Shown here piece after piece: positions 13,986 through 32,183 of a stretch of 64,000 nucleotides of DNA (positions are counted from its first letter, which is position 1; each line of letters begins with the position of its first letter). The translations under genes were made by a program, and so were the position numbers. The DNA is from Pseudorhodoferax aquiterrae (lineage in GTDB: Bacteria; Pseudomonadota; Gammaproteobacteria; Burkholderiales; Burkholderiaceae_C), in the NCBI RefSeq assembly GCF_014652235.1, contig NZ_BMYK01000010.1:62001-126000 (forward strand), read 5' to 3'. The notes beneath the pieces are model-generated. The model was not told the DNA's origin. It saw only the letters and a list, made by a program, of their open reading frames with translations, and did no database searches.

Positions 13986-14082
13986 GGCGGATCCTCGAAG
14001 GAGTGGATGCCGGTAACTGTAAGCGCCATTGGCGTTACAACTGCCCTGCGATAATCGCCGGTTCGTTTTGCGGATACTCCCC

Positions 14083-15153
14083 ATGATTCTTGTCACCGGC
14101 GGCGCCGGCTTCATCGGCACCAACTTCGTGCTGGATTGGGTTGCCAAGATTGGCGAACCCGTACTGAACCTGGACAAGCTCACGTATGCGGGCAACCTGG
14201 AAAATCTGGCCAGTTTGGCTGACGACGCCAGGCATCGGTTCGTACAGGGCGACATCGGGGACTCGGCGTTGGTCGGCCGCCTGCTGGCCGAGAACGCTGT
14301 CCGTGCCGTCGTGAACTTCGCTGCCGAGTCGCACGTGGACCGTTCCATCCACGGCCCGGCCGCCTTCATCGAGACCAATGTGGTCGGCACCTTCGGCCTG
14401 CTGGAGGCTGTCCGCGCCTACTGGGGGGCCTTGCCGGCCGAGCGCAAGGCGGCGTTCCGCTTCCTGCATGTCTCGACCGACGAGGTCTACGGCTCGCTGG
14501 ATCCGCAGGCGCCAGCCTTTACTGAGCAGCACCGCTACGAGCCCAACAGCCCGTATTCGGCCAGCAAGGCCGCCAGCGACCACCTGGTGCGCGCCTACCA
14601 CCACACCTACGGCTTGCCGGTGCTGACGACCAACTGCAGCAACAACTACGGCCCGTTCCATTTCCCCGAAAAGCTGATCCCGCTGATGATCGTCAACGCC
14701 CTGGCCGGCAAGCCGCTGCCGGTGTATGGCGATGGACAGCAGATCCGCGACTGGCTCTACGTCGGCGACCACTGCAGCGCCATCCGGCGCGTGCTGGAGG
14801 CTGGCGGCGTTGGCGAGGTCTACAACGTGGGGGGCTGGAACGAAAAGCCCAACCTGGAGATCGTGCGCACGGTCTGCGCGCTGCTGGACGAGAAGCGGCC
14901 GCGGGCCGACGGCAAGTCCTATACCGAGCAGATCGCCTACGTGACAGACCGCCCCGGCCACGACCGACGCTACGCCATCGACGCGCGCAAGATCGAGCGC
15001 GAGCTCGGCTGGAAGCCCGCCGAGACCTTTGACACGGGCATCCGCAAGACGGTGGAGTGGTACCTCGCGAACGCCGATTGGGTCGCGCGCGTGCAGAGCG
15101 GCGCTTACCGCGAGTGGTTGTCGAAGAACTACAGCGAGCGCCCTGCAGCATGA
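14083..15153 (+). CDS. rfbB: dTDP-glucose 4,6-dehydratase
   Basis: A 356-residue extended SDR enzyme converting dTDP-glucose to dTDP-4-keto-6-deoxyglucose with bound NAD. Visible are the Rossmann motif [12 protein letters not shown] at the N-terminus, STDEVYG with the catalytic Asp-Glu pair, and YSASKAASD with the Tyr and Lys. It feeds both rhamnose and the 3-amino sugar made by genes downstream. ATG 14083 starts exactly at the nucleotide-binding strand. First gene of rfbBDAC, coupled to rfbD by an ATGA overlap. Confidence 0.96.
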
Positions 15154-16058
15154 AAATCCTACTGTTGGGCAAGGGTGGCCAGGTCGGCTGGGAGCTGCAG
15201 CGCAGCTTGGCGCCGTTGGGCGAGTTGGTGGCGCTGGACTTCGACAGTACCGAGCTGTGCGGCGACTTGAGCAAGCCCGAGGAACTGGCGGAGACCGTGC
15301 GCCGTGTGGCGCCGACTGTCATTGTGAATGCCGCCGCCCACACGGCGGTGGACAAGGCCGAGAGCGAGCCCGAACTTGCGCGCGCGTTGAACGCGGTGGG
15401 CGTCGGCGTGCTCGCGCGCGAGGCGCAGAAGCTGGGCGCCTGGATGGTTCATTACTCGACCGACTACGTGTTCGACGGCAGTGGGCATCAGCCTTGGACG
15501 GAAAGTAGCCAGACCGGCCCACCGTCGGTCTATGGCCGCACCAAGCTGGAAGGCGAGCAATTGCTCCAGCAGCATTGCCGTCGCCACCTCATCTTTCGCA
15601 CTAGCTGGGTCTACGCCGCGCGAGGCCAGAACTTCGCCAAGACCATGCTGCGGCTGTCTGCCGAACGCGAGCGCTTGACGGTGGTGGACGACCAGTTCGG
15701 TGCGCCCACCGGCGCGGAGCTTCTCGCCGATGTGACGGCTTTGGCATTGCGTCGAACGCAGGCGGCGGACGGCGATGCGTTGGCCGGTCTGTACCACGTC
15801 GTGGCTGGCGGTGAAACCTCCTGGCATGGCTATGCACGCTTCGTGATCGACTTTGCCCAGCAGCGCGGGATCACGCTCAAGGCAGTCGGCGATGCGATTC
15901 AGGCCGTCCCATCCAGTGCGTTCAAAGTGATCGCGCCGCGCCCTCGCAATAGCCGGTTGGACACGAGAAAGCTGCGCGGTGCCTTTGGCCTGGTGCTGCC
16001 GCACTGGCAAATTGGCGTCGCACGTATGCTCACCGAAACCCTGGAACGCTCTGCATGA
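15150..16058 (+). CDS. rfbD: dTDP-4-dehydrorhamnose reductase
   Basis: A 302-residue SDR enzyme that makes dTDP-L-rhamnose from the 4-keto epimer. The N-terminal [12 protein letters not shown] is the NAD(P)H-binding loop; the STDYVFDG motif and the YGRTKLEGE catalytic Tyr/Lys are typical of RmlD. ATGA overlaps at both ends couple it to rfbB and rfbA. Length is normal for the family. Confidence 0.95.
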
Positions 16059-16942
16059 CGATTCAACGCAAAGGCATCATCTTAGCGGGTGGGTCCGGCA
16101 CCCGGCTGCATCCCGCCACGCTGGCCATCAGCAAGCAACTGCTGCCGGTGTATGACAAGCCCATGATCTATTACCCGCTCAGCACGCTGATGCTGGCGGG
16201 CATCCGCGACATTCTGGTGATCAGTACGCCGCAGGACACGCCGCGCTTCCAGCAGTTGCTGGGTGATGGGAGTCAGTGGGGGTTAAATCTGCAATACGCG
16301 GTCCAATCTAGTCCCGATGGATTGGCTCAGGCGTTCTTGATCGGCGAGTCATTCCTGAATGGTTCTCCGAGCACGCTGGTACTGGGTGACAACATCTTTC
16401 ATGGGCACGACTTTCAGGATCTATTGGAAAGCGCAAGCCGGCGGACAGAAGGGGCTAGCGTCTTTGCTTACCACGTACATGATCCCGAGCGCTACGGAGT
16501 GGCTGAGTTCAACACCGAAGGCAAGGTGTTGTCGCTGGAAGAAAAGCCGCAGGAGCCCAAGTCGAACTATGCAGTGACAGGCCTGTATTTTTACGACGGC
16601 CGCGTGTCAGAACTTGCAAGGCAACTCAAACCTTCCGCGCGCGGCGAACTCGAAATCACCGATCTGAACCGGTTTTACCTCGACGACGGCAAGCTCCACG
16701 TCGAGATCATGGGGCGAGGCTACGCATGGCTTGACACTGGCACGCATGAAAGCCTGCTGGAAGCGGGCCAGTTCATCGCGACCATTGAGCATCGGCAGGG
16801 CTTGAAGGTGGCATGTCCTGAAGAGATCGCTTTTCGCCAAGGGTGGGTCGATGCCGGCCAACTGGAGCGGCTCGCCGCCCCACTGCTCAAGGCCGGCTAC
16901 GGCCAGTATTTGCTGCGTCTCTTGAAGGAAAAGGTGTTCTGA
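16055..16942 (+). CDS. rfbA: Glucose-1-phosphate thymidylyltransferase
   Basis: A 295-residue nucleotidyltransferase forming dTDP-glucose from dTTP and glucose-1-phosphate. The signature [20 protein letters not shown], the [15 protein letters not shown] block and [13 protein letters not shown] with its metal-binding Asp are present, as is the C-terminal GYGQYL. It overlaps rfbD and rfbC by four and one bases. Third-position GC begins to drop within this gene. Confidence 0.96.
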
Positions 16943-17499
16943 TGAAGGTGACGCGGCTGGAGATCCCCGATGTCCTGTTGGTCGAGCCGAAGGTGTTCGG
17001 TGACACCCGCGGCTTCTTCTACGAAAGCTTCAACGCTGAAGGGTTCCGCGTTGCGACCGGCCTCGGTCTAGATTTTGTACAGGACAACCACAGCCGCAGT
17101 AGCAAGGGTGTCCTGCGCGGCTTGCACTACCAGCTGCCGCCGCATGCGCAGGGCAAGCTGGTGCGTGTGGTCCGCGGCGCAGTGTTCGATGTGGCGGTAG
17201 ACATCCGTGCATCGTCCCCGAGCTTCGGGCGATGGGTGGGAGCGGAGCTAACGGAGGAGAACCATCGCCAGCTTTGGGTTCCGCCTGGCTTTGCGCATGG
17301 ATTCCTGGTGCTGAGCGATAGCGCTGATTTTCTCTACAAGACGACCGACTACTACGCCGCGACGCACGAGCGCTGCATTGCGTGGAACGATGCGGCATTG
17401 GCCATCGAGTGGCCGCTGTACGCACTCCAAACTGCACCAACGTTGTCGGTCAAGGACGCTGCCGCGCCAGGGCTGTCCGCCGCCGAGTTGTTCGCCTGA
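16942..17499 (+). CDS. rfbC: dTDP-4-dehydrorhamnose 3,5-epimerase
   Basis: A 185-residue cupin-fold epimerase. RGFFYESFN, the QDNHSRSSKGVLRGLHYQ stretch with the catalytic His, and WVPPGFAHGFLVLS are the family signatures. It supplies the L-rhamno epimer for RfbD. The start codon shares its A with the rfbA stop (TGATG). Last gene of the rhamnose operon proper, 52 bases before wzm. Confidence 0.95.
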   Translation: MKVTRLEIPDVLLVEPKVFGDTRGFFYESFNAEGFRVATGLGLDFVQDNHSRSSKGVLRGLHYQLPPHAQGKLVRVVRGAVFDVAVDIRASSPSFGRWVGAELTEENHRQLWVPPGFAHGFLVLSDSADFLYKTTDYYAATHERCIAWNDAALAIEWPLYALQTAPTLSVKDAAAPGLSAAELFA

Positions 17500-17551
17500 A
17501 TACACAGCCTGTGACACTGCACGTCCTGCCACACGCAGGCACTGTTGCCTT

Positions 17552-18388
17552 ATGAATCCTCACGCGGAACGTTCCGGCTCCCCTGCTTCGTTGGTGCGGA
17601 CGCTCGTTGTCCACCGCGCCATGATCTTTCAAATGGCTCGGCGAGAGGTCGTCGGACGGTACCAGGGCTCGGTGTTCGGGTTGGCGTGGTCGTTCTTCAA
17701 TCCAATCCTTATGCTAGCCGTTTACACCTTCGTGTTTTCGGTGGTTTTCAAGGCGCGCTGGACTGCGGGTCCCGACGTCGGGGAGAGCCGAACCCAGTTT
17801 GCTGTGATCTTGTTCGCCGGGATGATCGTGCACGGGCTGCTGGCGGAGATGATGAACCGCGCGCCAGGGTTGGTGCTGGGCAACGTGAACTACGTCAAGA
17901 AGGTGGTGTTCCCCCTCGAAATTCTGCCGGTCGTTACCGCACTCAGCACCTTGTTCCATACAGCCATCAGCCTGACTGTGTTGGTAGTGGCGTTTTGGCT
18001 GTTCCACGGATATCTCCACTGGACGACCCTGCTGGTGCCAATGGTCTTCCTGCCGCTCATCCTTCTCGGTCTGGGGCTTTCGTGGTTGTTGGCGTCGTTA
18101 GGCGTGTTCCTACGCGACGTCGGCCAAGTTGTGGTCATCCTGACCACGGTCCTTATGTTCCTTTCGCCTGTTTTTTATCCACTGAGTGCAATTCCGGAGG
18201 GCTTGCAGTCCCTGGTCATGCTTAACCCGCTGACCTTCATCATTGAGCAGGCACGCGCAGTACTGGTATTTGGTCACCTGCCCGACTGGTTCGGATTGGC
18301 CGCCTACATGCTGTGCGCGTTGCTGATTGCATGGGCCGGATACTTTTGGTTTCAGCGGACCCGTCGGGGATTTGCCGATGTCCTCTGA
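17552..18388 (+). CDS. wzm: O-antigen ABC transporter permease
   Basis: A 278-residue inner-membrane protein of the ABC-2 polysaccharide-export family. About six hydrophobic segments are visible (for example near FNPILMLAVYTFVFSVVF, FHTAISLTVLVVAFWLF and VVVILTTVLMFLSPVFYPLS). The amphipathic N-terminal segment REVVGRYQGSVFGLAWS is typical of Wzm. With the ATPase downstream it would flip a finished und-PP-linked glycan to the periplasm. The ATPase start lies 11 bases inside its end. Confidence 0.92.
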   Translation: MNPHAERSGSPASLVRTLVVHRAMIFQMARREVVGRYQGSVFGLAWSFFNPILMLAVYTFVFSVVFKARWTAGPDVGESRTQFAVILFAGMIVHGLLAEMMNRAPGLVLGNVNYVKKVVFPLEILPVVTALSTLFHTAISLTVLVVAFWLFHGYLHWTTLLVPMVFLPLILLGLGLSWLLASLGVFLRDVGQVVVILTTVLMFLSPVFYPLSAIPEGLQSLVMLNPLTFIIEQARAVLVFGHLPDWFGLAAYMLCALLIAWAGYFWFQRTRRGFADVL

Positions 18389-19721
18389 CAACGTTGCCGT
18401 CCGTGTCTCACATCTGACCAAGTCATACGAGATCTACGACACGCCACGAGACCGACTGCGTCAATTCGTGTGGCCGCGCGTTCAACGGCTCCTAGGCTTG
18501 CGCCAGCGCCAGTACTACCGTGAGTTTCGAGTACTGCAGGATCTCTCATTCGAGATACGCCGTGGCGAGACCGTTGCTATCGTTGGCAAGAATGGCAGCG
18601 GCAAGTCCACGCTGCTCCAGATCATCTGCGGGACTCTGAACCCTAGCCGAGGCGAGGTACAACTCAACGGTCGCGTTGCGGCCCTCCTGGAGTTGGGCTC
18701 CGGCTTCAACCCCGAGTTTTCCGGCCGCGAGAACGTGTATATGAATGCCGCGGTGCTAGGCCTTGCCCGTCACGAAGTCGACGCCAAGTTGGCGGAAATC
18801 CTCGCGTTCGCTGATATCGGCGCATTCATCGACCAGCCAGTCAAGACGTACTCCAGCGGAATGTATGTGCGGCTTGCATTCTCCGTTGCGATCCATGTCG
18901 AGCCGGACATTCTGGTTGTCGACGAGGCGCTGAGTGTGGGTGACATTCGATTTCAGTCCAAGTGTCTGCACGCTATCGAGGCCATCAAACAGCGTGGTGC
19001 AGCGGTCCTCTTCGTGACGCACAGCCCGGGTCAGGTCGAAGCGCTGTGCAGCCGCGCGATCTGGCTGCATGACGGGGTTGTCAAGGCGGACGAACAGCCC
19101 AAAACCTTGATGCGCCGATACATCAACTTCATGACCCATGACATGGACGACGCCGTACCGGCGGTTGTGGCGCCGGTGGCGTGCGACGCCCAGCCGGCGC
19201 CGTCGGCCGACTGGGTGGGACTCGGCGCGTCAGGTCATCGCAGCGGAACGCTGTCCGCTGTGATCGACCGCATCAAAGTGGTGGGCCCGGATGGCGCAGC
19301 CTTGCGTGTGGCCGATTGCGAAACTCAGGCCGTCGACTTATTCCTATCCGTTCTCGTGCATGAACGGGTGCCCATGCCGCTCCTGGCTGTCGGAGTTTTT
19401 AACGAGCTCAACGAGCCGCTGGTGCATTTCAACAGCGAGAACGTCGGTGCTGCGTTGGCCGCGTTAGCACCTGGGCGGCACACCGTGCGGGTTGCGCTGG
19501 AGCTCCCTGCGCTGCGACCCGGTGAGTACCTGATCTCCGTAGGCCTCGATGACGGCGTTTCTGGCCAGAGCGTTGTGCTTTGCCACGTATACGACGCTTG
19601 GCCGTTTACCGTGGCTCAGCCTCCACGGCGCAAGCCGCAGGGCGGCTATGTGCAGATTGCTGCCGGCGCTGACACCATTGCAGTCCTGTCTCGAAATGAA
19701 GATGAAGCTGTTTCTACCTGA
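18378..19721 (+). CDS. wzt: O-antigen ABC transporter ATP-binding protein with C-terminal glycan-binding domain
   Basis: A 447-residue ATPase. Walker A (GKNGSGKST, near residue 70), the YSSGMYVRLAFS signature near 157 and Walker B (ILVVDEAL, near 177) are intact. Residues about 280-430 form an extra beta-rich domain like Wzt-C of E. coli O8/O9a (VFNELNEPLVHFNSENV, LPALRPGEYLISVGL). In that system Wzt-C recognises the methyl or methylphosphate cap put on by WbdD and so exports only completed chains. The extra domain here therefore predicts a chain-terminating modification. Confidence 0.92.
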   Translation: MSSDNVAVRVSHLTKSYEIYDTPRDRLRQFVWPRVQRLLGLRQRQYYREFRVLQDLSFEIRRGETVAIVGKNGSGKSTLLQIICGTLNPSRGEVQLNGRVAALLELGSGFNPEFSGRENVYMNAAVLGLARHEVDAKLAEILAFADIGAFIDQPVKTYSSGMYVRLAFSVAIHVEPDILVVDEALSVGDIRFQSKCLHAIEAIKQRGAAVLFVTHSPGQVEALCSRAIWLHDGVVKADEQPKTLMRRYINFMTHDMDDAVPAVVAPVACDAQPAPSADWVGLGASGHRSGTLSAVIDRIKVVGPDGAALRVADCETQAVDLFLSVLVHERVPMPLLAVGVFNELNEPLVHFNSENVGAALAALAPGRHTVRVALELPALRPGEYLISVGLDDGVSGQSVVLCHVYDAWPFTVAQPPRRKPQGGYVQIAAGADTIAVLSRNEDEAVST

Positions 19722-21165
19722 CGACTACACGGTGCGCCGTGATAACCCCCTGTACGGCGATGTCCCTGGCGAGCTTGTCTATCAGCCAGATGTCTACCGA
19801 CTTGCGCTGTATTTGGCCCAGCGAGCTGGGCTGCGCCACGTGGTCGACATCGGCTGCGGCTCGGCCGGCAAACTCCTAGCTTTCCGTGGGCATTGCGCAG
19901 TCATCGGCATTGATTCGGAGTTCGGCATTGACATGGCCCGCAAGACGATGCCCGAAGGTCGATGGATCGTGCACGACTTGGAGCAGCCGTTGCCGCCGCT
20001 GGGTGACGATGTGCTGCGTGATGCCGTCGTAATCTGCTCCGATGTGATCGAGCATCTGCCGCAACCGGCGCATCTGGCCGGGCAGTTGGCGGACTTGGCC
20101 AGGCGCGCACCATATGTCCTTGTGTCCACGCCGGATAGAGACAGAGCTCGCGGTTGGCTGGATCGAGGACCTCCGGCCAATCCTGCACATGCGCTCGAAT
20201 GGAACGCATCCGAGTTCGTACGCTTCCTGCGCGAAGCTGGCTTTGGCGACGTGCCATTCCATGGGCACACCATCAACACCGACCACCACCGCGCCAAGAG
20301 CACGCTGATCGCGCTTGCAGGGATTCACGTTTCGCCCAGGCCATGCCCGCCCTGCAAGTTGGCGGCAGTCATGCATGGCTTCAACGAGGTGGACATACTC
20401 CCCGAGGTACTGGACCATCTGGCAGCTCAGGGCGTCGAAGTGCATTACTTCGATAATTGGTCGACCGATGGATCGTGGGAGTTGGCACAAGAGCGCCTGC
20501 ACCGAGGCCAGATTGCCCATTGCGCCCGATTCCCCGAAGCACCGACCGACCAGTACGAGTGGCATGCGCAGCTGAGTCACACCACGAGCTACGCCCAGAC
20601 GCTAGATGCGACGTGGGTCATGCATCACGATGCGGACGAGATACGCACTTCGCCCTGGCCTGGCGTGTCGCTTCGTGATGCTGTCGCCTTCATTGATGCG
20701 CTGGGCTACAACGCGATTGACTTCACTGTGCTGGACTTTCGCTTCGTCGACGGTCGCGCTCAGATTACAGCGCACTACGAGCGCGATCTGAACCATTTCG
20801 AGTTCGGGCGCCGGCCCGGCCATTTCAGGCAGATCAAATGCTGGCGCAACGATGCGCCGGCCGAATTGGCAGACTCGGGCGGGCACGACGTGCAGTTGCC
20901 TGGTCGCAAGGTCTACCCGGTCAAGTTTTTGCTGAAGCACTATCCGTTGCGCAATGAGGAGCAGGCTTTACGCAAGATCCACCACCATCGATTACCGCGT
21001 TTCACGACCGAGCAACAGAAGTACCAGTGGCATCACCAGTACGACGCGTACAAGACGGTCGAGCGTGTTACCGGTTGGAAGTACAAGGACTTGTTGCCAT
21101 GGCATGCGGTGCATTTCAACACTGAGTACCTTGTCGAGCGCATCAGTGGCATTGGCCTGGATTGA
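19696..21165 (+). CDS. Methyltransferase-glycosyltransferase fusion protein
   Basis: A 489-residue protein in two parts. Residues about 1-215 are a class I SAM methyltransferase: [15 protein letters not shown] near residue 57, acidic residues after strand 2 (IGIDSEFG) and [11 protein letters not shown]. Residues about 225-489 look like a GT-A glycosyltransferase: [32 protein letters not shown] and a HHDADE metal-binding triad. The start overlaps the wzt end by 26 bases; ATG 19702 is an equally possible start. It should act on the O-chain in the cytoplasm; acceptor and donor are unknown. Confidence 0.82.
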
Positions 21166-21184
21166 TTGCTCGGAACGGATAGCG

Positions 21185-24100
21185 ATGAACGACTTTCTCC
21201 AAGAGGCTGGCTATGGCTTCGATGTGCAGCGCGGGGTGTGGCGGCGCGAAGGCTACGCCAGTTTGGCGTACAGCGACGGCGACGAGGTCGAACTGCGCCT
21301 TATGCGCATTGTTGAGCAGGCAGACGATCTTTCAGTGCTGTCGCAGGAACTGCGGGCACATTGCACTGACTGGCCTTCGCTGTACCACTTGACCGGCACC
21401 CGAGCCAACATTCTGAGGCCGTTTTCGCACCTTCTGGACGGTGCGGAGGTCTTGGAGATCGGCGCTGGCTGCGGAGCCATCACACGCTACCTGGGCGAGA
21501 GCGGCGCCCAGGTGCTGGCGCTGGAAGGCACGTTGCGCCGCGCTTCGATCGCACGCGCCCGCACGCGTGACCTAGCCAATGTGCAGGTCGTGGCCGACAA
21601 CTTCGAGCAGTTTGCTACGGCCCAGCAATTCGATGTTGTGACATTGATCGGCGTGCTGGAGTACGCCAACCGGTTTGTATCGGGAGAGTGTCCCGCACAG
21701 GTGATGCTCCAGCGAGCGCGTGCGCTGCTCAAGCCGCAGGGGCGGCTCATCATCGCGATCGAGAACCAGCTGGGCCTCAAGTATTTCGCAGCGGCACCGG
21801 AGGACCATTTTGGTGTCGCCATGTATGGGGTGGAAGACCGGTACCGGGCAGACGAGGCGCAGACTTTTGGCCGCGCCGTGCTGCAAGCCATGCTCCATGG
21901 CGCGGGCTTCCCCCAGGTTCAATGCCTGGCGCCGTTCCCAGACTACAAATTCCCGACTTCTATCGTCACGGAAGAGGGCTTTCGTGCCGAGGGCTTCGAT
22001 GCCGCTGCATTCGCTTCGCAGAGCGTGCGCCGCGATCCGCAACTGCCTGAGGTGCTGGCTTTCTCGCCGGAACTCGTGTGGCCTGTGCTGGCCCGCAACG
22101 GGCTGGCATTGGACATGGCGAACTCATTGCTGTTCGTGGCGGCGCAAGTACCGGCAACGCCGGACGCGGCGACGGTATTGGCCTACCACTACAGCACCGA
22201 TCGCGCCAAGCCGTACTGCAAGGAGACACGGTTCCTACGCCGGGACGGCGACGCGATCACACTGGAGTACAGGCGCCTGAGCCCAGATGAGCTGCCGGTT
22301 TCGACGCGTGTGCACCATGCGTTGGTGGCTTCCGCTGACTATGTTCACGGCGTGCCGCTGTCGCTGGCCTTGCTGCGTACCGTGTCGACCGATGGTTGGA
22401 CGCTCGAACAAGTCGGGGCTCTTCTGCGCGAGTACCTGCACGTCGTTGCCGATCTGGCCGGGGGCGTGCGGGTACCTGAAGCTCCATGGCGTGCCGAGAT
22501 GCAGCTACCGGGCGTGTTCTTCGACTTGGTGCCCCAGAACATCATCGTCAAGACAGGTGGGCAGGGTTTTGCCGTGATCGACCGCGAATGGGACCTTCAG
22601 GATGGGATCTCGGTCGGGTGGTTGTTGTTTCGGACACTTTTGCTGCTCATCAACTCTGTCTCCCGTTTCGGGCGCTGTGCCGACGCCGAGGAGTGGACGC
22701 GCCAAAGCTTTATTCTGGCGGCGATGCAGGCCGCGGGTCTACATGTCGGCCCGAACGACGTCGACAGTTACGCGCTTGAAGAAAGTCGGCTGCAGGCAGA
22801 CCTGACGGGACGAGCGTTCGAGGTTCTCAAGGACTGGGGCGCCATCGCAGCGTTGCCGACGGAGAACCTGTCGTTGGCCGTGCAGCGGCGCAGTGCCAAG
22901 TTGATTCAGCTCGCCGCTGCGCACGAAGGTCTTCAAAAGGAGTTTGAGGAGCGGACGAACTGGGCATTGCAGCTGGATGCGAGCTTGGCGCGAACGCAGC
23001 AGGACTACCAGGCACTTGAGCGCGTTACGGTCCAAGCCCGTCATGAGCGCGAGCTAGGCCAGAACGAACTCAACGTCCTGCGAGCCACTCTGGCGGACTT
23101 GCAACTGCGCTCTGCGCAATTGCAGCGTGAGCGCGACGACGCGCATATGCAGGTGCGCTCCATCTCGTCGACACGGGATGACATCCTGGCAGCCAAGGAG
23201 CAGGCAGAGCGGCGCTTTGCTGAAGTGGAGGCCAAGCGTGCTGCATTGGCGGGATCCTTGTCGTGGCGTGTGACCAAGCCTTTGCGCATGCTCGCGCGGG
23301 TTGCGCGTGGCGAGTGGTCGACGATCCGCACACTGGTGGCGCCGGAAGTGGTGCGACTGGCGCGGGCTGGCTACAGGCGCGCACCGCTTTCGCCGCACAT
23401 GAAAGACAAGGCTGCTGCATTGGCATACCGCGTTGCGGGCCCGCTGTTCACTGGCGTTGTCCACTACGAGATCTGGCGCCGGCAGCGCGACAACGCTCCG
23501 CTGGCGCCGGTGGGCGCGGGCCCGGTGCCGCAAGCCGACTTTGCCGAGGTGTTGTCATCGCTTCGCTTTCCTGTCGTTGCCAATCCAGACGTTTCCATCG
23601 TCATTCCGACTTACGGAAACCTGGAGCACACGCTGGCCTGCGTGCGTTCGATTGCAATGCACATGCCGCGTGCGTCCATGGAGGTGCTGGTTGCAGAGGA
23701 TGCATCCGGCGATCCGCAGATCGACCTGATTCGCCGCATTCCGGGTCTGCGCTACATCAGGCACCCGCAGAATCTGGGATTCCTGCGATCGTGCAATGCG
23801 GCGGTCAAGCAGGCCAAAGGGCGCTACATCTATCTGCTCAACAACGACACGGAGGTGACCGCAGGCTGGCTGGACAGCATGCTCGCGTTGTTCGAGAAGC
23901 ACCCCGATTGCGGACTGGTCGGCTCCAAACTCGTCTATCCTGACGGGCGCCTGCAGGAAGCCGGGGGCATTCTGTGGCGCGATGGATCCGCCTGGAACTG
24001 GGGGCGACTCGACGACCCTTCGCGCCCCGTCTACAACTATGTGAAAGAGGCCGACTATTGCTCGGGCGCCTCTCTCATGGTTCCAGCCGCGCTCTGGCAC

Positions 24101-25498
24101 CAACTCGGCGGCTTCGATGAGCACTATCTCCCGGCCTATTACGAAGACACCGATCTGGCATTCCGCGTGCGCGCGGCTGGCAAGAAGGTGATGTACCAGC
24201 CGCAGTCGGTCGTCATCCACTACGAAGGAATCTCCCACGGCACCGACACTGGCAGCGGCATCAAGGCGCACCAAGTGGAGAACCAAAAGAAGTTCTACGT
24301 ACGCTGGAAAGAAATTCTCGAACGCGAGCACTTGGACAACGGCGTCAATCCGTTCCGTGCGCACGACCGCTCGATCGGCAAACGGACCATTTTGGTGGTC
24401 GACCACTACGTGCCCCAGCCCGACCGCGATGCCGGTTCGCGCAGCATCTGGTGCTTTCTGCGCGAGTTCCGTGCGATGGGCTTGAATGTCAAGTTCTGGC
24501 CGGCCAACCATTGGCACGACACGCACTACGCCCCTTTGCTGGAGCAGGAGGGTATCGAGGTGCTCTACGGTAACGAGTACGTCGGCCGTTACGCCAATTG
24601 GGTTGAGACCCATGCCGGGGATTTGGACTATGTTTTCCTGAACCGTCCCCACATCGCTCTAGAACACTGGGAGGCAGTGCGCGAGCATACCCGAGCCAAA
24701 CTGCTGTATTACGGCCACGACCTGCACTACGCTCGCCTGCTGCTCGAGCACGAGCATACCGGCGAAGCTCGCCTTCTGCGTGATGCGGGGCAGATCCGTG
24801 CCGTCGAAGAGATGCTCTGGCGGGAATGCGATGTCGTCTACTATCCGTCAACGACAGAAACTGCCGCTGTCCAGGCCTTGATCCCCGGGAAGACGGCGAG
24901 GACAGTCCCTCTGTATTTCTTTGATCGCAATGAATTCAGCGTCAACATCGCAGGGCGTCGCCTGCGGGAAATTCTTTTCGTCGCTGGGTTTGGTCATCCG
25001 CCGAACGTAGACGCAGCGATGTGGTTCGTTCGAGAAGTTCTACCGATCATTCAGGGGCAACTGAATGATGTGCAAGTGGTGTTGGCGGGGTCGAATCCGA
25101 CACCAGCCGTCAAGGCATTGGCCGGTGACTCAATACAGGTTACCGGCTATCTGTCGGATGCAGAACTGGACAATTATTACGCTCGTTGCGGGGTAGCCGT
25201 CGTTCCGCTGCGATTTGGCGCAGGAGTAAAAGGCAAGGTATTGGAGGCAATGCACCACGGCGTTCCGCTCGTCACGACGGCGGTCGGAGCGCAAGGCCTT
25301 CCAGGCTTGGAAAATGTTGTTTCCGTCTGTGACAGTGCCGCGGACTTCGCTGCCGCTGTGATCAAAGTTATGACGAACGTCAACGCATGGCAGGTAACCG
25401 CGCAGAACGGTTTCGATTTTGTGCACGCGCGCTTTTCGCAGTCTGCACTAAGTGCGGTATTTGCTCAGGATTTTCAAGAGGTTAACGGAGTTACGTAA
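21185..25498 (+). CDS. Giant methyltransferase / kinase-like / coiled-coil / double glycosyltransferase protein
   Basis: A 1437-residue protein. In order: SAM methyltransferase ([17 protein letters not shown] near residue 90); a kinase-like region (about 340-560) with DLVPQN at Asp447 and IDREW at Asp466, matching the catalytic-loop DxxxxN and metal-binding ID-EW pattern of small-molecule kinases; a charged coiled coil (about 568-690); the SWRVTKPLR linker; a GT2 domain ([10 protein letters not shown] near 800, LLNNDTEV near 884); and a GT4-like C-terminal domain (about 1065-1437). Methyltransferase-kinase-coiled-coil is the layout of WbdD, the chain terminator and length ruler of ABC-exported O-antigens. 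A matching role is inferred. It is 19 bases after the preceding gene and overlaps the next start (TAATG). Confidence 0.85.
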
Positions 25499-26592
25499 TG
25501 CTGATCAACGATTTGAACGCGCGAGTCCGCCAATACCGTCCTGCCATCTGTGCAGCGGTTGAAAGCGTCATTGAAACTGGGTGGTTTGTTCTGGGGCCTC
25601 AAGTTAAAGCATTTGAGGCGGAATTCGCAAGTTACTTGCATGTCAACCATTGCATCAGCGTCGCCAACGGTACTGATGCAATCGAACTGGCACTTAAGGC
25701 GCTTGGGGTGGAAATCGGCGATCTTGTCGCTACCGTCGCTAACGCCGGTATGTACACGACGGCCGCTGTCAACGCGCTCGGGGCTCGGCCGATGTTCATG
25801 GACGTCGACCTGGAAACACACAACATTGCTCATTCTGAGGTCGAGAAAGCGATTGCCGCAGGTGCCAAGGTGGTCGTGGTCACCCACCTTTATGGTCAGG
25901 CCGTTCCTGAAATTGCCGAGATTTCCCGCTCTTGTAAGCGCGCCGGTGTAGCGTTGCTGGAAGATTGCGCCCAGGCCCACGGGGCCAGATCCAACGGGCA
26001 AAGAGTTGGATCTTTTGGTGATGCAGCGAGCTTCAGCTTCTACCCCACCAAAAACCTCGGCGCGTTGGGCGATGGTGGCGCGGTGGTGACAAATAGCGAC
26101 GCAATCGCAAAGGCAGTGACGACGTTGCGCCAATATGGCTGGACGAGCAAGTATCATGTGGGTGTTGCCGGAGGCCGTAACAGCCGCTTGGACGAAATCC
26201 AAGCTGCGATCTTGCGAATTTTTTTGCCAGACCTTGATGCCTCAAACGAACGGCGTCGTTCTATTGCCCACGCATATGGAACCGGAATTCATCATCCAGC
26301 CGTACGCGCTCCGCTTCACAATGGAGAGGGCTCTGTCGCACACCTCTACGTCATACGTTCATCCCGTCGAGACGAACTCAAGGCCCACTTGCAGGCCGTT
26401 GACATTTCCTCTGACGTCCACTATCCGGTCCCAGATCATCGGCAACAGATCTTCGGCGCGCTCTACGCGCATATTCACTTGCCAAATACAGAACGCCTTG
26501 CATCCGAGGTACTGACCCTGCCATGCTATCCAGAGATGACCGATGATCAGGTGGCACGAGTCATTGCGACTGTTAACGCATGGAAGCAATAA
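25498..26592 (+). CDS. DegT/DnrJ/EryC1 family sugar aminotransferase (dTDP-3-keto-6-deoxyhexose type)
   Basis: A 364-residue PLP aminotransferase. The lysine forming the Schiff base lies in SFYPTKNLGALGDGGA; ANGTDAIELALKALG and LLEDCAQAHGA are further family motifs. Next to a ketoisomerase/acetyltransferase of FdtD type it most likely aminates dTDP-3-keto-6-deoxyhexose at C3, giving dTDP-Fuc3N or dTDP-Qui3N (FdtB/QdtB role). Translation is coupled to its neighbours: TAATG at the start and a 13-base overlap with the next gene. Confidence 0.9.
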   Translation: MLINDLNARVRQYRPAICAAVESVIETGWFVLGPQVKAFEAEFASYLHVNHCISVANGTDAIELALKALGVEIGDLVATVANAGMYTTAAVNALGARPMFMDVDLETHNIAHSEVEKAIAAGAKVVVVTHLYGQAVPEIAEISRSCKRAGVALLEDCAQAHGARSNGQRVGSFGDAASFSFYPTKNLGALGDGGAVVTNSDAIAKAVTTLRQYGWTSKYHVGVAGGRNSRLDEIQAAILRIFLPDLDASNERRRSIAHAYGTGIHHPAVRAPLHNGEGSVAHLYVIRSSRRDELKAHLQAVDISSDVHYPVPDHRQQIFGALYAHIHLPNTERLASEVLTLPCYPEMTDDQVARVIATVNAWKQ

Positions 26593-27533
26593 AGTTCTCT
26601 GTCGTGATACCGGTCTATAGGAACGAGGAGTCAATTCCGCGTTTGCTGCAGGCCTTGGCGGACTTATATTTCCAGTTGGATGGAAAGATGGAGGCGGTGT
26701 TTGTTGTAGACGGCAGCCCAGACTCGTCATTTGAAATTCTTCGAGACGCTCTTTTCAAAATTGAGTTCCCTGCGCAGCTGCTCGCCCACTCGCGAAATTT
26801 CGGTTCATTTCCTGCCATTCGGACCGGTTTGGCGGCCGCAAGGGGTTCATACTACGGCGTGATGGCGGCAGATCTTCAGGAGCCGCCTCAACTTATGGTC
26901 TCATTCCTCCGGTCTTTGGAAAAAGATGAGTGCGATGTGGCGATCGGAACCAGAGTTCAGCGCAATGACTCCACAACATCAAAATTTACGTCGGGATTAT
27001 TTTGGTGGCTTTATCGCCGGCTTATTGTCCCTGAGATGCCGGAGGGAGGCGTGGATGTCTTCGGGTGCAACAAAATATTCCGCGACCGCCTTCTGGAGCT
27101 CGAAGAATCTCGATCCTCGTTGATTGCACTGATTTTTTGGCTCGGATTTAGGCGAAAGACAATTGGGTATGAACGCCTTGCGCGAAAAGAAGGCGTCTCG
27201 GCATGGACCTTTAGGAAAAAGGTTGACTACATGCTGGATAGTATTTTTGCATTCACCGATTACCCAATTAGGCTATTGACTCGTATTGGTTTGGCTGGCT
27301 GCGGACTTTCAATCGTCTTGACATTGGTGGTGTTGCTGGCGCGATTCAGTGGAAACGTTACTGTACCGGGATATGTCCCAACCATGCTGGTTGTCCTATT
27401 CTTTGGTGCTCTCAACCTCCTTGGCATAGGTTTGGTCGGGACGTATGCATGGCGCACCTATGAAAATAGCAAAAATCGACCGCTCGCAGTAGTGGCAATG
27501 GAGGTTAGGAATGGAGAAAAAGCAGATGAGTAG
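26580..27533 (+). CDS. GtrB-like glycosyltransferase family 2 protein with two membrane helices
   Basis: A 317-residue polyprenyl-phosphate glycosyltransferase-like protein. The GT2 domain ([39 protein letters not shown] with the metal-binding AADLQ) is followed by two hydrophobic helices near residues 237-263 and 270-290. This is the layout of GtrB/ArnC/DPM1-type enzymes that load one sugar onto undecaprenyl phosphate on the cytoplasmic face. GtrA is encoded 963 bases downstream. Codon use is clearly AT-richer than in the flanking genome. Confidence 0.87.
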
Positions 27534-28485
27534 TGAAAAACAAATTCATCGAACCGCCGAAGTTCTTACGGATAGAGTTGGTGATCGCACGACAATCTGG
27601 CAATCCGTTGTTGTCCTGAAGGGGGCAGTGATCGGCGCAGATGTGAATATCTGCGCACATTGTTTTATTGAGAACGACGTGGTAATTGGTGACCGCGTGA
27701 CCGTTAAGTCGGGCGTTTACTTGTGGGACGGTGTCACGCTGGGGGATGACGTGTTCGTCGGCCCCAACGCCACATTTACCAACGATAAATTTCCGAGGTC
27801 TAAACAGTTTCTTGATAAGCCCCTTCGGACGACAGTCGAGGCGGGTGCGACGATTGGTGGCGGCGCAGTGATCTTGCCGGGCGTCACCATCGGAACCGGC
27901 GCAATGGTCGGCGCTGGTGCTGTTGTAACGAAGTCTGTTCCACCGCATGCCATTGTAAAAGGATCTCCGGCGCGCATAATGGGATACGTTGAGAACGGTG
28001 CGATCGCTGTAGCCGGGCCTGAGCAGTCCCGCGCATACGTAGTGCCGAAAATCCCTGGTGCGGTCCAAGAAATAGGCGTAGGGCGCGTGACGTTACGTAG
28101 GCTGAACGCCGTGCAGGATATGCGCGGAGACTTATCTGTAGGTGAATTTGAGAAAGATATCCCGTTTTCGGTGAGGCGCTATTTCTTGGTGTTTAATGTG
28201 CCGAGCGAGAAAACCCGAGGCGAGCACGCCCACAAAGAGTGTCACCAGTTCCTCATTTGTGTCAAGGGTCGGTGTTCTGTAGTGGTTGACGACGGGGCTT
28301 CTCGGGCTGAAATATTGTTGAATTCGCCGGATCTCGGGCTGCACCTGCCGCCTATGATATGGGGAATTCAATACAAATACAGTTCTGATGCCGTCCTTCT
28401 TGTTTTTACGTCACATTACTACGACGCTAGCGACTACCTCCGAGACTACGGAGAGTTCACTAGGCTTACTGCTACAGCGCTTTAG
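27511..28485 (+). CDS. Bifunctional N-acetyltransferase / sugar 3,4-ketoisomerase (WxcM/FdtD-like)
   Basis: A 324-residue fusion. Residues about 1-160 form a left-handed beta-helix acyltransferase with hexapeptide repeats ([37 protein letters not shown]). Residues about 185-320 are a WxcM-type cupin: [30 protein letters not shown]. FdtD of Shewanella has both activities and makes dTDP-3-acetamido-3,6-dideoxyhexose with an aminotransferase like the one upstream. The fucose or quinovose configuration cannot be told by eye. ATG 27511 (GGAGG six bases upstream) and ATG 27526 are both plausible. Confidence 0.9.
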
Positions 28486-28496
28486 TTTCTTGTGCG

Positions 28497-28862
28497 ATGA
28501 AAATTCCGCGTTGGGCGAAATTCTTGATCGGAGGTGGCTTTAATACGATAGCCAGCTATGGCGTCTACTTACTGCTGCATCTGTGGTTCTCATATCACGT
28601 GGCCTACGCAATTGCTTATGTGGCCGGAATAGCACTGTCATACGTCATTAACTCTACATTTGTGTTCTCTCAGTCGCTGTCTTGGGGACGCTTCTTTGCG
28701 TTCCCGTCGGTGTATGTTGTTCAGTATATTGTATCAGCATCCTTGTTAGGATTGATTGTGAATCTTGGAGTCGGCGAGAAGGTTGCTCCGCTTGTCGTTT
28801 CGGCTGTGACGGTGCCTGCGACGTTCGTTTTGACTAAGTTGGTTTTGCGAGTTCGTGGATGA
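28497..28862 (+). CDS. GtrA family membrane protein
   Basis: A 121-residue protein with four hydrophobic segments and the family opening KFLIGGGFNTIASYGVYLLL plus YVINSTFVF. GtrA proteins are proposed flippases for undecaprenyl-phosphate-linked single sugars made by GtrB. It starts 11 bases after the ketoisomerase/acetyltransferase stop and is convergent with the polytopic membrane gene, seven bases away. A Gtr-type glycan decoration system is inferred from the trio. Confidence 0.9.
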   Translation: MKIPRWAKFLIGGGFNTIASYGVYLLLHLWFSYHVAYAIAYVAGIALSYVINSTFVFSQSLSWGRFFAFPSVYVVQYIVSASLLGLIVNLGVGEKVAPLVVSAVTVPATFVLTKLVLRVRG

Positions 28863-28869
28863 GATCCCC

Positions 28870-30267
28870 TTACTGGGTGGGCGCTTGGCGTGAGTATGGG
28901 CCTATATTTAACGTCCGTTGTATTTCTTTGGCTTGCTGGGCGACTTGTAAGCTAGTTGCTTGCAACGCGCGAGATTGCTCGGTCGTCAAATCAAGTGGTG
29001 AGAGTACTGCCGCTCGGAGTTGATTGAAATAGGCTGCTCTATAGGGCATGGCTTTAGTTTCGAAAACGGTGGTAATGAAGAAACCGAGCGTACATAGGCA
29101 GAGGGCGCATGCAGTTGCTGCTCGAAACTTTTTCGTATCTTTGGGTTCGTTGAATGATAGTTGCATATTCATCCAGATTATCGCTATGGATATGCAGCTG
29201 AGGTCAATGTAATATCGGGAGGCCATCACTGCTTCGGGGCCTTTGTCTCCTCGTGCGAATGAAAATGCAATTGTGGAGATTGTGCCGTACGCCATAAGGT
29301 AGACCGGTAGTCCATTTACTTTATGTTGGCCGCTGCGTATAAATCGAAAGGTGGATAAGGCGGCCATACACAGCCAAAGCGAGCCGATGAAGAACGAGCT
29401 TAGCTTTGGCAGGTTCAAGCGCCCGTATGCCTCGACGCCGATTATTCCTCCGACTGCTGCAATTGGTGCAAGAGACACGTTTTGGATCTGTGTAAGGATG
29501 CTCTGGCTTCCGGCCATTCCGGATGCTGTCGTAGTAAATCTTCCAGCCCCGATGAACGCAACAATAGTCGCAATTGTTGTAAAGAAAACTGCTCGGTAAA
29601 ATTTTTTGTTGGTAGAGCTTTTTCGGAGAGCACTTATAGTTATGATTACGGCGGCTGCAAAGATGTAGGCCCGCCCATACGCGAATAGGAATACTGCAAA
29701 TAAAATCATTGCTGAAATAATGATTGTTTGCGCAATGGACTTTTCTTTGGTCGGGTCGCTGAAGCATGCGGATGCAATGCAGAGAAATATGAGGCTGCGT
29801 GCGAGCTCTCCAAATCCAATGTCGAGCGTGAACAGTTCAAATGAAGCTGGGTGGAAAGCCATTGCACAGAAAACTAGTGAGGCAGCGCATCGCAGTGCTT
29901 TTTCGGTCTTATTTTTCGCTAGTGGCAGGCTTTTGCAAAGAAGTAATGAAATTAGTAAGAGCACCACTCCGCTCAGAAAGCTTGGTATAAGAGGATCGAG
30001 TCTGAACCAAGCGATGTTCACCCAGGTAGTCAGTTGTAGGATCAGTCCCGTGTGTTGGCCTTGATTCCAGAATGCGAATGCATTCAGCCAATTTTCTTGG
30101 ATCGATGGATAATATGTGATAAATCGCAGGCTGTCCATGTAGGCGACGTCTGCCCGAATCACCAGAATGTAGATCGTGTAAATAGCGAGCAGTGCTATCG
30201 CAAAGCTGAGAGTTGCTGGGCCAATGCTTCCTGTGTGATCGCTTGGGCTTCTGGCGGCGCTTTTCAT
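28870..30267 (-). CDS. Polytopic membrane protein, candidate GtrC-type glycosyltransferase
   Basis: A 465-residue protein with roughly ten hydrophobic segments, low GC and no sequence motif I recognise with certainty. A periplasmic loop after the first helix carries acidic residues (VIRADVAYMDSLRF), a layout seen in membrane GT-C enzymes and serotype-specific Gtr proteins. Position beside GtrA and a GtrB-like gene suggests it adds the lipid-carried sugar to the O-chain in the periplasm. An O-antigen polymerase-like role is less likely in an ABC-exported system. It is transcribed against the rest of the locus. Confidence 0.65.
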   Translation of the reverse strand: MKSAARSPSDHTGSIGPATLSFAIALLAIYTIYILVIRADVAYMDSLRFITYYPSIQENWLNAFAFWNQGQHTGLILQLTTWVNIAWFRLDPLIPSFLSGVVLLLISLLLCKSLPLAKNKTEKALRCAASLVFCAMAFHPASFELFTLDIGFGELARSLIFLCIASACFSDPTKEKSIAQTIIISAMILFAVFLFAYGRAYIFAAAVIITISALRKSSTNKKFYRAVFFTTIATIVAFIGAGRFTTTASGMAGSQSILTQIQNVSLAPIAAVGGIIGVEAYGRLNLPKLSSFFIGSLWLCMAALSTFRFIRSGQHKVNGLPVYLMAYGTISTIAFSFARGDKGPEAVMASRYYIDLSCISIAIIWMNMQLSFNEPKDTKKFRAATACALCLCTLGFFITTVFETKAMPYRAAYFNQLRAAVLSPLDLTTEQSRALQATSLQVAQQAKEIQRTLNIGPYSRQAPTQ

Positions 30268-31079: not shown

Positions 31080-32183
31080 ATGGTTTTTCTTGTTGTGTTC
31101 AGCTTCCTAGTCTCTGCGACCTCGGCCTTTGTCGTCATCCGGCTCGCGCGCCGTCACGCACGCCAGTACGCGCATGACATGCCCCAGCGCTTCCACTTGG
31201 GCCACATCCCCCGCATCGGCGGCGCGGGCATCTTCTTCGGCCTCGTCCTCGCCTGGGCCTACGCCGGCACCCCCCAGGCTGCCTCCCTGAACGTCGACTG
31301 GCACGCCAATTCCACTTTCCTCTGGCTCATGGCCATGTGCATGGCCCCCGCCGTGTTCGCCGGCATCGCCGAAGACATGACCCAGCGCCTGCGCGCCCGC
31401 CTGCGCCTGGGCCTCACCGCCCTGTCCGCCATCCTGCTGTGCTGGCTGCTCAACCTCGGGGTTCGGCGCATCGGCTTCGCCTCTGTGGACGACTGGCTCC
31501 AAGCCGTCCCGCTCGCCGCCGCCCTCTTCGCCATGGTCGCCATCGCCGGCCTGCCGCATGCCTTCAACCTCATCGACGGCTACAACGGCCTGGCGGGCAT
31601 GGTCGCCATCCTGATCAGCCTGGCCCTGGTCCACGTGGCCCTGCAGGTCGGCGACCGGCAGCTCGCCGCCATGCTGGTCTGCCTGGTCGGCGCCACGGGC
31701 GGCTTCCTGCTCTGGAATTACCCCTACGGCAAGATCTTCGCGGGCGATGGTGGGGCCTACGTGTGGGGGCTCGTGATCGCCGTGGCCTGCGTGCTGCTGG
31801 TGCAGCGCCATCCCGTGGTCTCGCCCTGGTTCCCCATGCTGCTGCTCATCTACCCCGTGAGCGAGACCATGTTCTCGGTCTACCGCAAGCTCGCGCGCGG
31901 CCAGTCGCCCAGCACCGCCGATGCGCTGCACCTGCACCAGCTGATTTTCCGCCGCATCGTGCGCGTGGTGTTCGAGGACGACGAGGCCAGCGACCTGCTG
32001 GCGCGCAACAACCGCACCTCGCCCTACCTGTGGATCTTCTCGCTGCTGACCGTGGTGCCGGCCGTCATGTTCTGGAGCAACACCGCCGTGCTGGCGGCGT
32101 TCTGCGCGCTCTTCGTGGTCACCTACGTCGGCGCCTACCTCATGATCATCCGTTTCAAGGTGCCGCGCTGGCTGGGCAAGTGA
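31080..32183 (+). CDS. WecA/MraY-family undecaprenyl-phosphate sugar-1-phosphate transferase
   Basis: A 367-residue membrane enzyme with about ten hydrophobic segments. [15 protein letters not shown] is the catalytic loop of the polyprenyl-phosphate HexNAc-1-P transferase family; the [19 protein letters not shown] loop and the HLHQLIFRR motif near residue 285 match WecA-like members. It would start und-PP-linked glycan synthesis. GC rises from island level to genome level within the first ~60 bases, so the gene marks the conserved right flank. It ends 55 bases before argB. Confidence 0.9.

Follow-up and report, generated by a model that had tools for sequence, protein, structure and literature searches.

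How can one polypeptide polymerise, cap and measure a polysaccharide chain? The question is raised by a protein of 1437 amino acids encoded in a 64,000-nucleotide stretch of Pseudorhodoferax aquiterrae DNA (hereafter the window; NCBI RefSeq assembly GCF_014652235.1, contig NZ_BMYK01000010.1, positions 62,001 to 126,000 of the forward strand). A first-pass annotation, made from the sequence alone, had read this protein as WbdD-like, with two glycosyltransferases (GTs) fused behind a coiled coil. Our analysis indicates that it is probably a fused terminator, ruler and polymerase of a Wzm/Wzt-exported O-polysaccharide, of the type represented by Klebsiella O7 ORF6.

Modules of the fusion protein

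An open frame spans 20954 to 25498, and translation from the ATG at 21185, which lies 20 bp past the end of the upstream gene, gives 1437 amino acids; the alignment with the orthologue of a second species of the genus, Pseudorhodoferax soli, begins at the same start. The protein and its modules are as follows.

21185..25495, + strand: methyltransferase-kinase-coil-GT2-GT4 fusion, 1437 amino acids (list of open reading frames, Pfam, P. soli alignment)
21362..21784, + strand: core of an S-adenosylmethionine (SAM)-dependent methyltransferase, residues 60-200, motif EIGAGCG at 91-97 (Pfam Methyltransf_12/11/23/25, AlphaFold2 model)
21785..22147, + strand: methyltransferase extension, residues 201-321, invariant EDH at 206-208 and PDYK at 252-255 (alignments)
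22148..22807, + strand: kinase-fold domain, residues 322-541, with the D447 codon at 22523-22525 and the D466 codon at 22580-22582 (AlphaFold2 model, Foldseek, choline kinase match)
22868..23254, + strand: coiled coil, the proposed ruler, residues 562-690 (model helices, heptad test, natural indel of 49 amino acids)
23255..23569, + strand: linker, residues 691-795 (sequence comparisons)
23570..24364, + strand: GT2 module, residues 796-1060, containing LLNNDTEV (PF00535, 6.1e-20)
24365..25495, + strand: GT4 module, residues 1061-1437, its N-terminal boundary putative (PF13692, 1e-25 at 1262-1398)

Pfam placed Methyltransf_12 at residues 90-188 (2.6e-11), Glycos_transf_2 at 804-964 and Glyco_trans_1_4 at 1262-1398, with overall extents of approximately 85-200 for the methyltransferase, 800-1015 for GT2, and 1260-1400 for GT4. 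No Pfam family matched residues 206-800 at E ≤ 0.01, and nothing exceeded the cut-off among 25 of the 35 NCBIfam families listed for the protein. Together with the AlphaFold2 model, these matches confirmed the order of modules proposed in the first-pass annotation, including the GT2 and GT4 domains behind the coil. The genome contains one full copy of the gene, and the other four matches are partial. Because the approximately 80%-identical P. soli orthologue carries all five modules, an assembly error is unlikely to account for the fusion.

The N-terminal half of the protein is common in GTDB genomes; a pattern scan found at least 595 stretches, of which at least 580 encode a relative, and 80 loci were kept for the comparisons. 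Conservation was assessed in an alignment of 65 sequences (64 loci and the window protein), in which D447, N452, E468, and W469 are invariant, while D466 occurs in 63 and is replaced by E in the remaining two. The two aspartates singled out by the first-pass annotation, Asp447 (DLVPQN) and Asp466 (IDREW), are thus both present. With this alignment, AlphaFold2 modelled residues 1-687 with a mean predicted local distance difference test score (pLDDT) of 94.0 and a predicted template modelling score (pTM) of 0.87, and residues 322-556 alone with a pLDDT of 93.1 and a pTM of 0.90. The kinase model consists of a beta-rich first part and a helical second part, between which lie D447-x4-N452 and D466-x-E468. 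When this domain alone was compared by Foldseek, the best 50 of 272 matches (E ≤ 10) were all kinase entries by title, including protein kinases, choline kinase, RIO2, Cph001, and glucosamine kinase (best E 0.024), and eukaryotic protein kinases were the commonest of these weak matches. The best match of a kinase profile among PDB sequences was the choline kinase 4r77 (E 0.068, marginal), aligned on the catalytic loop, so that D447-x4-N452 and D466-x-E468 coincide with the corresponding segments of a solved enzyme. Two ornithine carbamoyltransferase matches of the same profile were taken as chance. Because the best 50 fold matches are all kinases and the catalytic residues are strictly conserved, residues 322-541 as modelled most likely form a distantly related kinase whose catalytic signature is intact; a kinase-like fold is therefore found in the region (residues 330-560) where the earlier annotation had suspected one, even if its matches are individually weak.

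Relationship to O7 ORF6 and other fused terminators

The closest characterised relative is ORF6 of the Klebsiella pneumoniae O7 locus (Kelly et al. 2024, PMC11231755; this and the other published sources are cited from excerpts). It is described as a methyltransferase followed by an unannotated AmiN-like domain of 223 amino acids, an immunoglobulin (Ig)-like carbohydrate-binding module (CBM), a coil, and a pair of GT2 modules. Its phosphorylation and methylation activities were shown in vitro, and the D441A variant gave no conversion (PMC11231755). All seven residues named for O7 ORF6, namely, Y28, Y66, G91, G93, E112, and Y158 of the SAM site and the catalytic Asp D441 (PMC11231755), are identical in the window protein (Y29, Y67, G93, G95, E114, Y160, and D447), with offsets that rise along the chain, and each is conserved in 63-65 of the 65 aligned sequences. 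The two proteins also share the methyltransferase, a kinase of approximately 220 amino acids (223 in O7), the coil, two C-terminal GT modules, a length of approximately 1400 amino acids, and an ABC-transporter pathway. O7 ORF6 has GT2 and GT2 modules, whereas the window protein has GT2 and GT4, and 3-amino-sugar genes adjoin the window gene, unlike that of O7 ORF6. The GT2-GT4 pairing and the missing CBM (see below) are modest differences. According to the same source, relatives of O7 ORF6 occur both with and without additional GTs (PMC11231755).

The first-pass annotation had proposed that a single polypeptide polymerises the chain, caps it, and controls its length; this idea is not new, because O7 ORF6 is already a fusion of a capper, a coil, and two GTs, and the arrangement has been published for both O7 and O12 (PMC11231755). 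Fusion with a methyltransferase-kinase capper has been known since 2024, and earlier fusions, WbbB and WsaE, carry other cappers. WbbB of K. pneumoniae O12 likewise unites a terminator with a coil and a pair of polymerase GTs, but its terminator is a glycosyltransferase for beta-linked 3-deoxy-D-manno-oct-2-ulosonic acid (Kdo) (PMC11231755), whereas the N-terminus of the window protein is a methyltransferase by Pfam. WsaE of Geobacillus stearothermophilus also begins with a methyltransferase, to which two rhamnosyltransferase domains are fused, and has wzm/wzt neighbours; it adds a 2-O-methyl cap to an S-layer glycan with three active domains and no kinase (PMC2943079), unlike the window protein, in which a kinase-fold domain lies between the methyltransferase and the coil.

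Gene neighbourhood, proposed mechanism and competing readings

The genes around the fusion are listed below; the names and roles are in part drawn from context.

14029..15153, + strand: rmlB-like deoxythymidine diphosphate (dTDP)-glucose 4,6-dehydratase, the name suggested by its neighbours (PF16363, 2e-93)
15057..16058 (predicted start), + strand: rmlD-like gene (PF04321, 5.5e-99)
16055..16942, + strand: rmlA-like nucleotidyltransferase (PF00483, 1.1e-76)
16843..17499 (predicted start), + strand: rmlC-like epimerase (PF00908, 7.3e-74)
17378..18388, + strand: Wzm-like ABC transporter permease (PF01061, 7.8e-23)
18327..19721, + strand: Wzt-like ATPase with a Wzt_C domain (PF00005, 1.1e-23; PF14524, 1.7e-15)
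19549..21165, + strand: second methyltransferase, carrying a fused GT2-like domain (PF13489, 1.2e-9; PF13704, 1.6e-9)
25498..26592, + strand: DegT/DnrJ/EryC1 aminotransferase (PF01041, 1.6e-99)
26580..27533, + strand: polyprenyl-phosphate type GT2 (PF00535, 1.1e-21; NCBIfam PgfS/ArnC-like, below cut-offs)
27511..28485, + strand: hexapeptide acyltransferase with an FdtA domain, probably for 3-amino sugar synthesis (PF00132, 2.6e-23; PF05523, 6.1e-53)
28497..28862, + strand: GtrA-like membrane protein (PF04138, 3.3e-17)
28870..30267, - strand: membrane protein, candidate GT-C, putatively GtrC-like (no Pfam match at E ≤ 0.01; hydrophobic by eye)
31080..32183, + strand: WecA-like phosphosugar transferase, putatively initiating (PF00953, 9.1e-34)

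The cluster looks like an ABC-transporter O-polysaccharide locus with dTDP-rhamnose and a 3-amino-sugar branch, and the presence of Wzm and Wzt neighbours is confirmed. The separate methyltransferase-GT2 fusion between wzt and the fusion gene is possibly an adaptor or an internal methylation enzyme. In positions 26580-30267, the polyprenyl-type GT2, the GtrA-like protein, and the membrane protein without a Pfam match resemble a three-component system that adds a side-chain sugar outside the membrane.

In the mechanism that we propose, the WecA-like enzyme would prime undecaprenyl phosphate, and the C-terminal GT2 and GT4, with the GTs of neighbouring genes, would extend a chain at least partly of dTDP-rhamnose origin. 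The coil would keep the N-terminal kinase and methyltransferase approximately 19 nm away (125 residues × 1.5 Å), and once the non-reducing end arrived at these domains, the kinase would phosphorylate it, the methyltransferase would methylate the phosphate, and growth would stop. Wzt_C would then bind the cap and Wzm would export the chain, after which a side branch containing a 3-amino sugar may be attached outside the membrane. The methylphosphate product is proposed by analogy, and we infer both that dTDP-rhamnose is a substrate of GT2 and GT4 and that chain length in this system is set by the coil.

The assignment is favoured by the seven matching residues, the kinase-like fold with its conserved catalytic loop, the gene content of the cluster, the Wzt-like open reading frames near 49 of the 80 relatives and the Wzm-like ones near 44, the frequency of PF00535 in the extra segments of relatives, and the single internal indel against P. 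soli, which falls in the coil (see below). Several points weigh against the assignment to a capped O-polysaccharide of the O7 ORF6 type. We are not aware of a glycan structure for the strain, although no search aimed at one was made. The match of the seven residues depends on the numbers printed in PMC11231755 and not on the ORF6 sequence. The Ig-like CBM between the kinase and the coil of O7 ORF6 has no counterpart here, where the coil helix of the model begins at 562, approximately 20 residues past a long helix at 523-541; in the excerpts used, the O7 authors are themselves unsure whether this module is needed (PMC11231755). The kinase domain alone has no Foldseek match at E ≤ 0.001, its TM-scores by query length are 0.20-0.34, and AmiN (6sul), the best match of the O7 authors (PMC11231755), is not among its best 50 of 272 matches. 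Of the 80 relatives, 31 have neither a Wzm-like nor a Wzt-like frame in the stretches examined, in part because of short contigs, and the C-terminal domain of the window Wzt has a match in only one of the 80 (blastp). A long Wzt with Wzt_C was also dropped as specific support after a control search, because a long Wzt is usual in this bacterial family: of 54 Wzt-like open reading frames listed there, 37 have 400-499 amino acids, 8 are longer, and 9 are shorter, so that 45 of 54 reach 400 amino acids, compared with 46 of the 49 found near the relatives. Wzt_C is consistent with cap recognition.

The 31 relatives in which neither transporter gene was found nearby are also an argument for a different function, in which the methylated phosphate decorates sugars along the chain or marks a secreted or protein-linked glycan instead of an O-antigen of lipopolysaccharide. 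The module also ends frames of approximately 2500 amino acids in Methylophilus, in a batch with TPR and GT41 families, and one O7 ORF6 homologue is associated with a Gluconacetobacter exopolysaccharide cluster (PMC11231755). However, capped O-chains would be expected to come with wzm, a wzt that includes Wzt_C, and a WecA-like gene, all of which are present in the cluster described here, and we regard this function as unlikely for the window protein.

We give somewhat less credit to a methyl-only cap, for which the kinase would be structural and the methyltransferase would modify a hydroxyl group of the sugar, the situation known from E. coli O8 and WsaE. A methyltransferase apparently without a full kinase does occur in three loci (L066, L067, and L068), and the same GT2-GT4 pair stands behind an unrelated methyltransferase alone in two others (L071 and L072); nevertheless, the invariance of D447, N452, and E468 and the loss of phosphorylation in O7 D441A in vitro (PMC11231755) make such a cap improbable.

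Finally, WbdD of E. coli O9a and K. pneumoniae O3 shares the succession of methyltransferase, kinase, and coil, and its cap is methylphosphate (PMC3482155), but it has 708 amino acids, a eukaryotic-type kinase, and no GTs, its polymerase WbdA being separate (PMC3482155). Deletion of wbdD in E. coli O9a is described as abolishing the O-chains (PMC3482155). In the Foldseek search with the whole model, other methyltransferases lead, and WbdD is represented at rank 20 (4azt), rank 28 (4ax8), and rank 39 (4azs) with TM-scores of 0.22-0.34 and root-mean-square deviations of 17-20 Å. No WbdD entry is found among the best 50 of 272 matches of the kinase domain, where other eukaryotic kinases occur, all weakly, nor among all 38 sequence matches of the fusion protein at E ≤ 1 or the best 60 of 156 matches of a profile of the N-terminal half. 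In spite of the common domain order, the alignment of 4azt over both domains (555 columns), and the frequency of eukaryotic protein kinases among the weak matches, we consider it very improbable that the protein is a genuine homologue of WbdD to which GTs were added, and membership of that family was set aside on sequence, profile, and fold comparisons. Because the seven residues match, the O7 kinase is quite different from that of WbdD in sequence and structure alike according to its authors (PMC11231755), and the resemblance in fold to WbdD is remote, we place the N-terminal half with the O7 ORF6-type methyltransferase-kinases. The first-pass annotation therefore stands as regards the kind of role, for which a terminator, ruler and polymerase working in a WbdD-like way is the best inference, and fails as regards the family.

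Coil length and probable module exchange among relatives

The coil had been estimated at approximately 120 residues; the two model helices (562-621 and 626-686) give approximately 125. Its heptad signal is moderate to mixed (shuffle p 0.001 to 0.23 in 42-residue windows within 561-692), and the longest run free of Gly and Pro, 64 residues, is not by itself unusual (shuffle mean 45.5, maximum 87). Across the 1431 residues that align, the window protein and its P. soli orthologue differ by a single internal indel, of 49 amino acids (seven heptads), which lies in the coil after residue 652, P. soli being the longer. Direct repeats of 18 bp, differing at one position, flank the additional 147 bp of P. 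soli, as read from the sequence, and 147 was the offset with the best 30-bp self-match among the offsets of 60-297 tried in steps of 3. No tandem DNA repeat was found in the coil of the window protein itself.

Coil lengths were also compared in 21 Pseudomonas relatives. The coil regions of nine of them have 214, 196, 142, 232, 268, 196, 196, 214, and 160 residues (L089, L090, L093, L094, L096, L097, L099, L100, and L103, respectively), that is, six distinct lengths that all equal 16 modulo 18; no p-value is given for this agreement, because the group was picked after the lengths had been seen and its members are related. An 18-residue repeat tops the autocorrelation in all four of the nine tested (L089, L093, L096, and L103), and 54-bp tandem repeats are present in both loci tested (L089 and L096). 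A second group also steps by 18 (L104, L106, L195, and L196, with 113, 131, 113, and 113 residues), while the other eight fit no series (L187, 188; L188, 109; L189, 93; L190, 91; L191, 188; L192, 125; L193, 212; L194, 153). A change in the copy number of the DNA repeat explains the 18-residue step, which may have been kept since it preserves the helix phase. We rejected the idea that coil indels in general come in multiples of 7 or 18: across the 116 pairs with at least 60% identity and any indel, their lengths are highly varied, in part owing to the ambiguous alignment of repetitive coils. Outside the coil, the indels of these pairs do not exceed 8 amino acids, apart from two, of 30 and 35.

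One tentative reading, to which we give slightly less than even credence, is that the coil is a ruler reset by evolution in whole helical steps, either heptad multiples (49 amino acids in Pseudorhodoferax) or 18-residue units (54-bp repeats in the Pseudomonas syringae group). Because such steps are in phase with the helix, the catalytic modules would keep their orientation, and the modal O-chain length would shift by fixed increments (approximately 27 Å per 18 amino acids and 73 Å per 49). If so, module swaps at the same gene, of the GT4 half or of the terminator, would retune cap, repeat, and length independently.

Insertions into the WbdD coil reportedly lengthen O-chains and truncations shorten them (PMC5082667), and the two orthologues that differ by one coil indel, like the Pseudomonas series, offer a natural parallel in a fused enzyme. 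Modal O-chain length would then be predictable from sequence and could be checked on existing strains. We found no prior account of natural coil-length variation in O-chain terminators in the open-licence papers searched. How differing O-chain lengths are controlled in plant-associated Pseudomonas is a question raised in PMC6804347, whose authors, in the excerpts used, did not succeed in finding a full O-polysaccharide cluster in P. syringae and its relatives; coil variation may bear on these differences. A divergent glycosyltransferase gene beside the transporter has been called "likely wbdD" (PMC12608077), and it may differ from the gene in the Pseudomonas loci compared here. We consider the stepwise variation the part worth further attention; the longer natural coil of a close relative makes the ruler idea easy to test.

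The C-terminal modules vary as well. The open frames of the 80 relatives range from 565 to 2529 amino acids; 25 have no extra segment above the limits used, and PF00535 (GT2) was found in 20 of 26 and 12 of 29 extra segments in the two batches scanned. Among 369 class-level genomes, at least 13, the window's own included, have a match at E ≤ 1e-30. The same GT2-GT4 pair follows the N-terminal half in P. soli and Fulvimonas soli (L116), and GT2 and GT4 also follow it in two Acidobacteriaceae (L138 and L142 by blastp; L138 only by Pfam). The pair also stands behind the unrelated methyltransferase mentioned above (L071 7457-11683 and L072 8931-12326) and behind a GT4-like domain (L073 8547-12257). 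Between the window protein and P. soli, identity falls from 90-98% over residues 841-1140 (windows of 60 codons) to 58% over 1141-1431, and identity at four-fold sites falls from 50-62% to 30% past residue ~1140 (window 24605-25477 against L074). This sharp drop at both amino acid and synonymous sites is as expected if the latter portion of the GT4 module had been replaced, and it suggests such an exchange.

Three relatives are frames of 409-421 amino acids (L066 8916-10148, L067 8890-10116, and L068 9359-10621) that adjoin separate frames with a GT2 match. Because they align only to residues ~17-317, they apparently keep the methyltransferase without the kinase and are perhaps an O8-like counterpart. 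In six Methylophilus loci (L117-L120, L122, and L124), no Wzm or Wzt was found in the stretches examined, and the methyltransferase-kinase module lies at the C-terminus of the ~2500-residue frames; in the batch that includes the front segments of these proteins, matches to GT41 occur in six batch members and matches to TPR families in up to nine. One relative of 1024 amino acids (L060 8525-11596) has approximately 350 extra N-terminal residues and, in the kinase directly before the catalytic loop, an insert of approximately 150 residues that is repetitive by eye.

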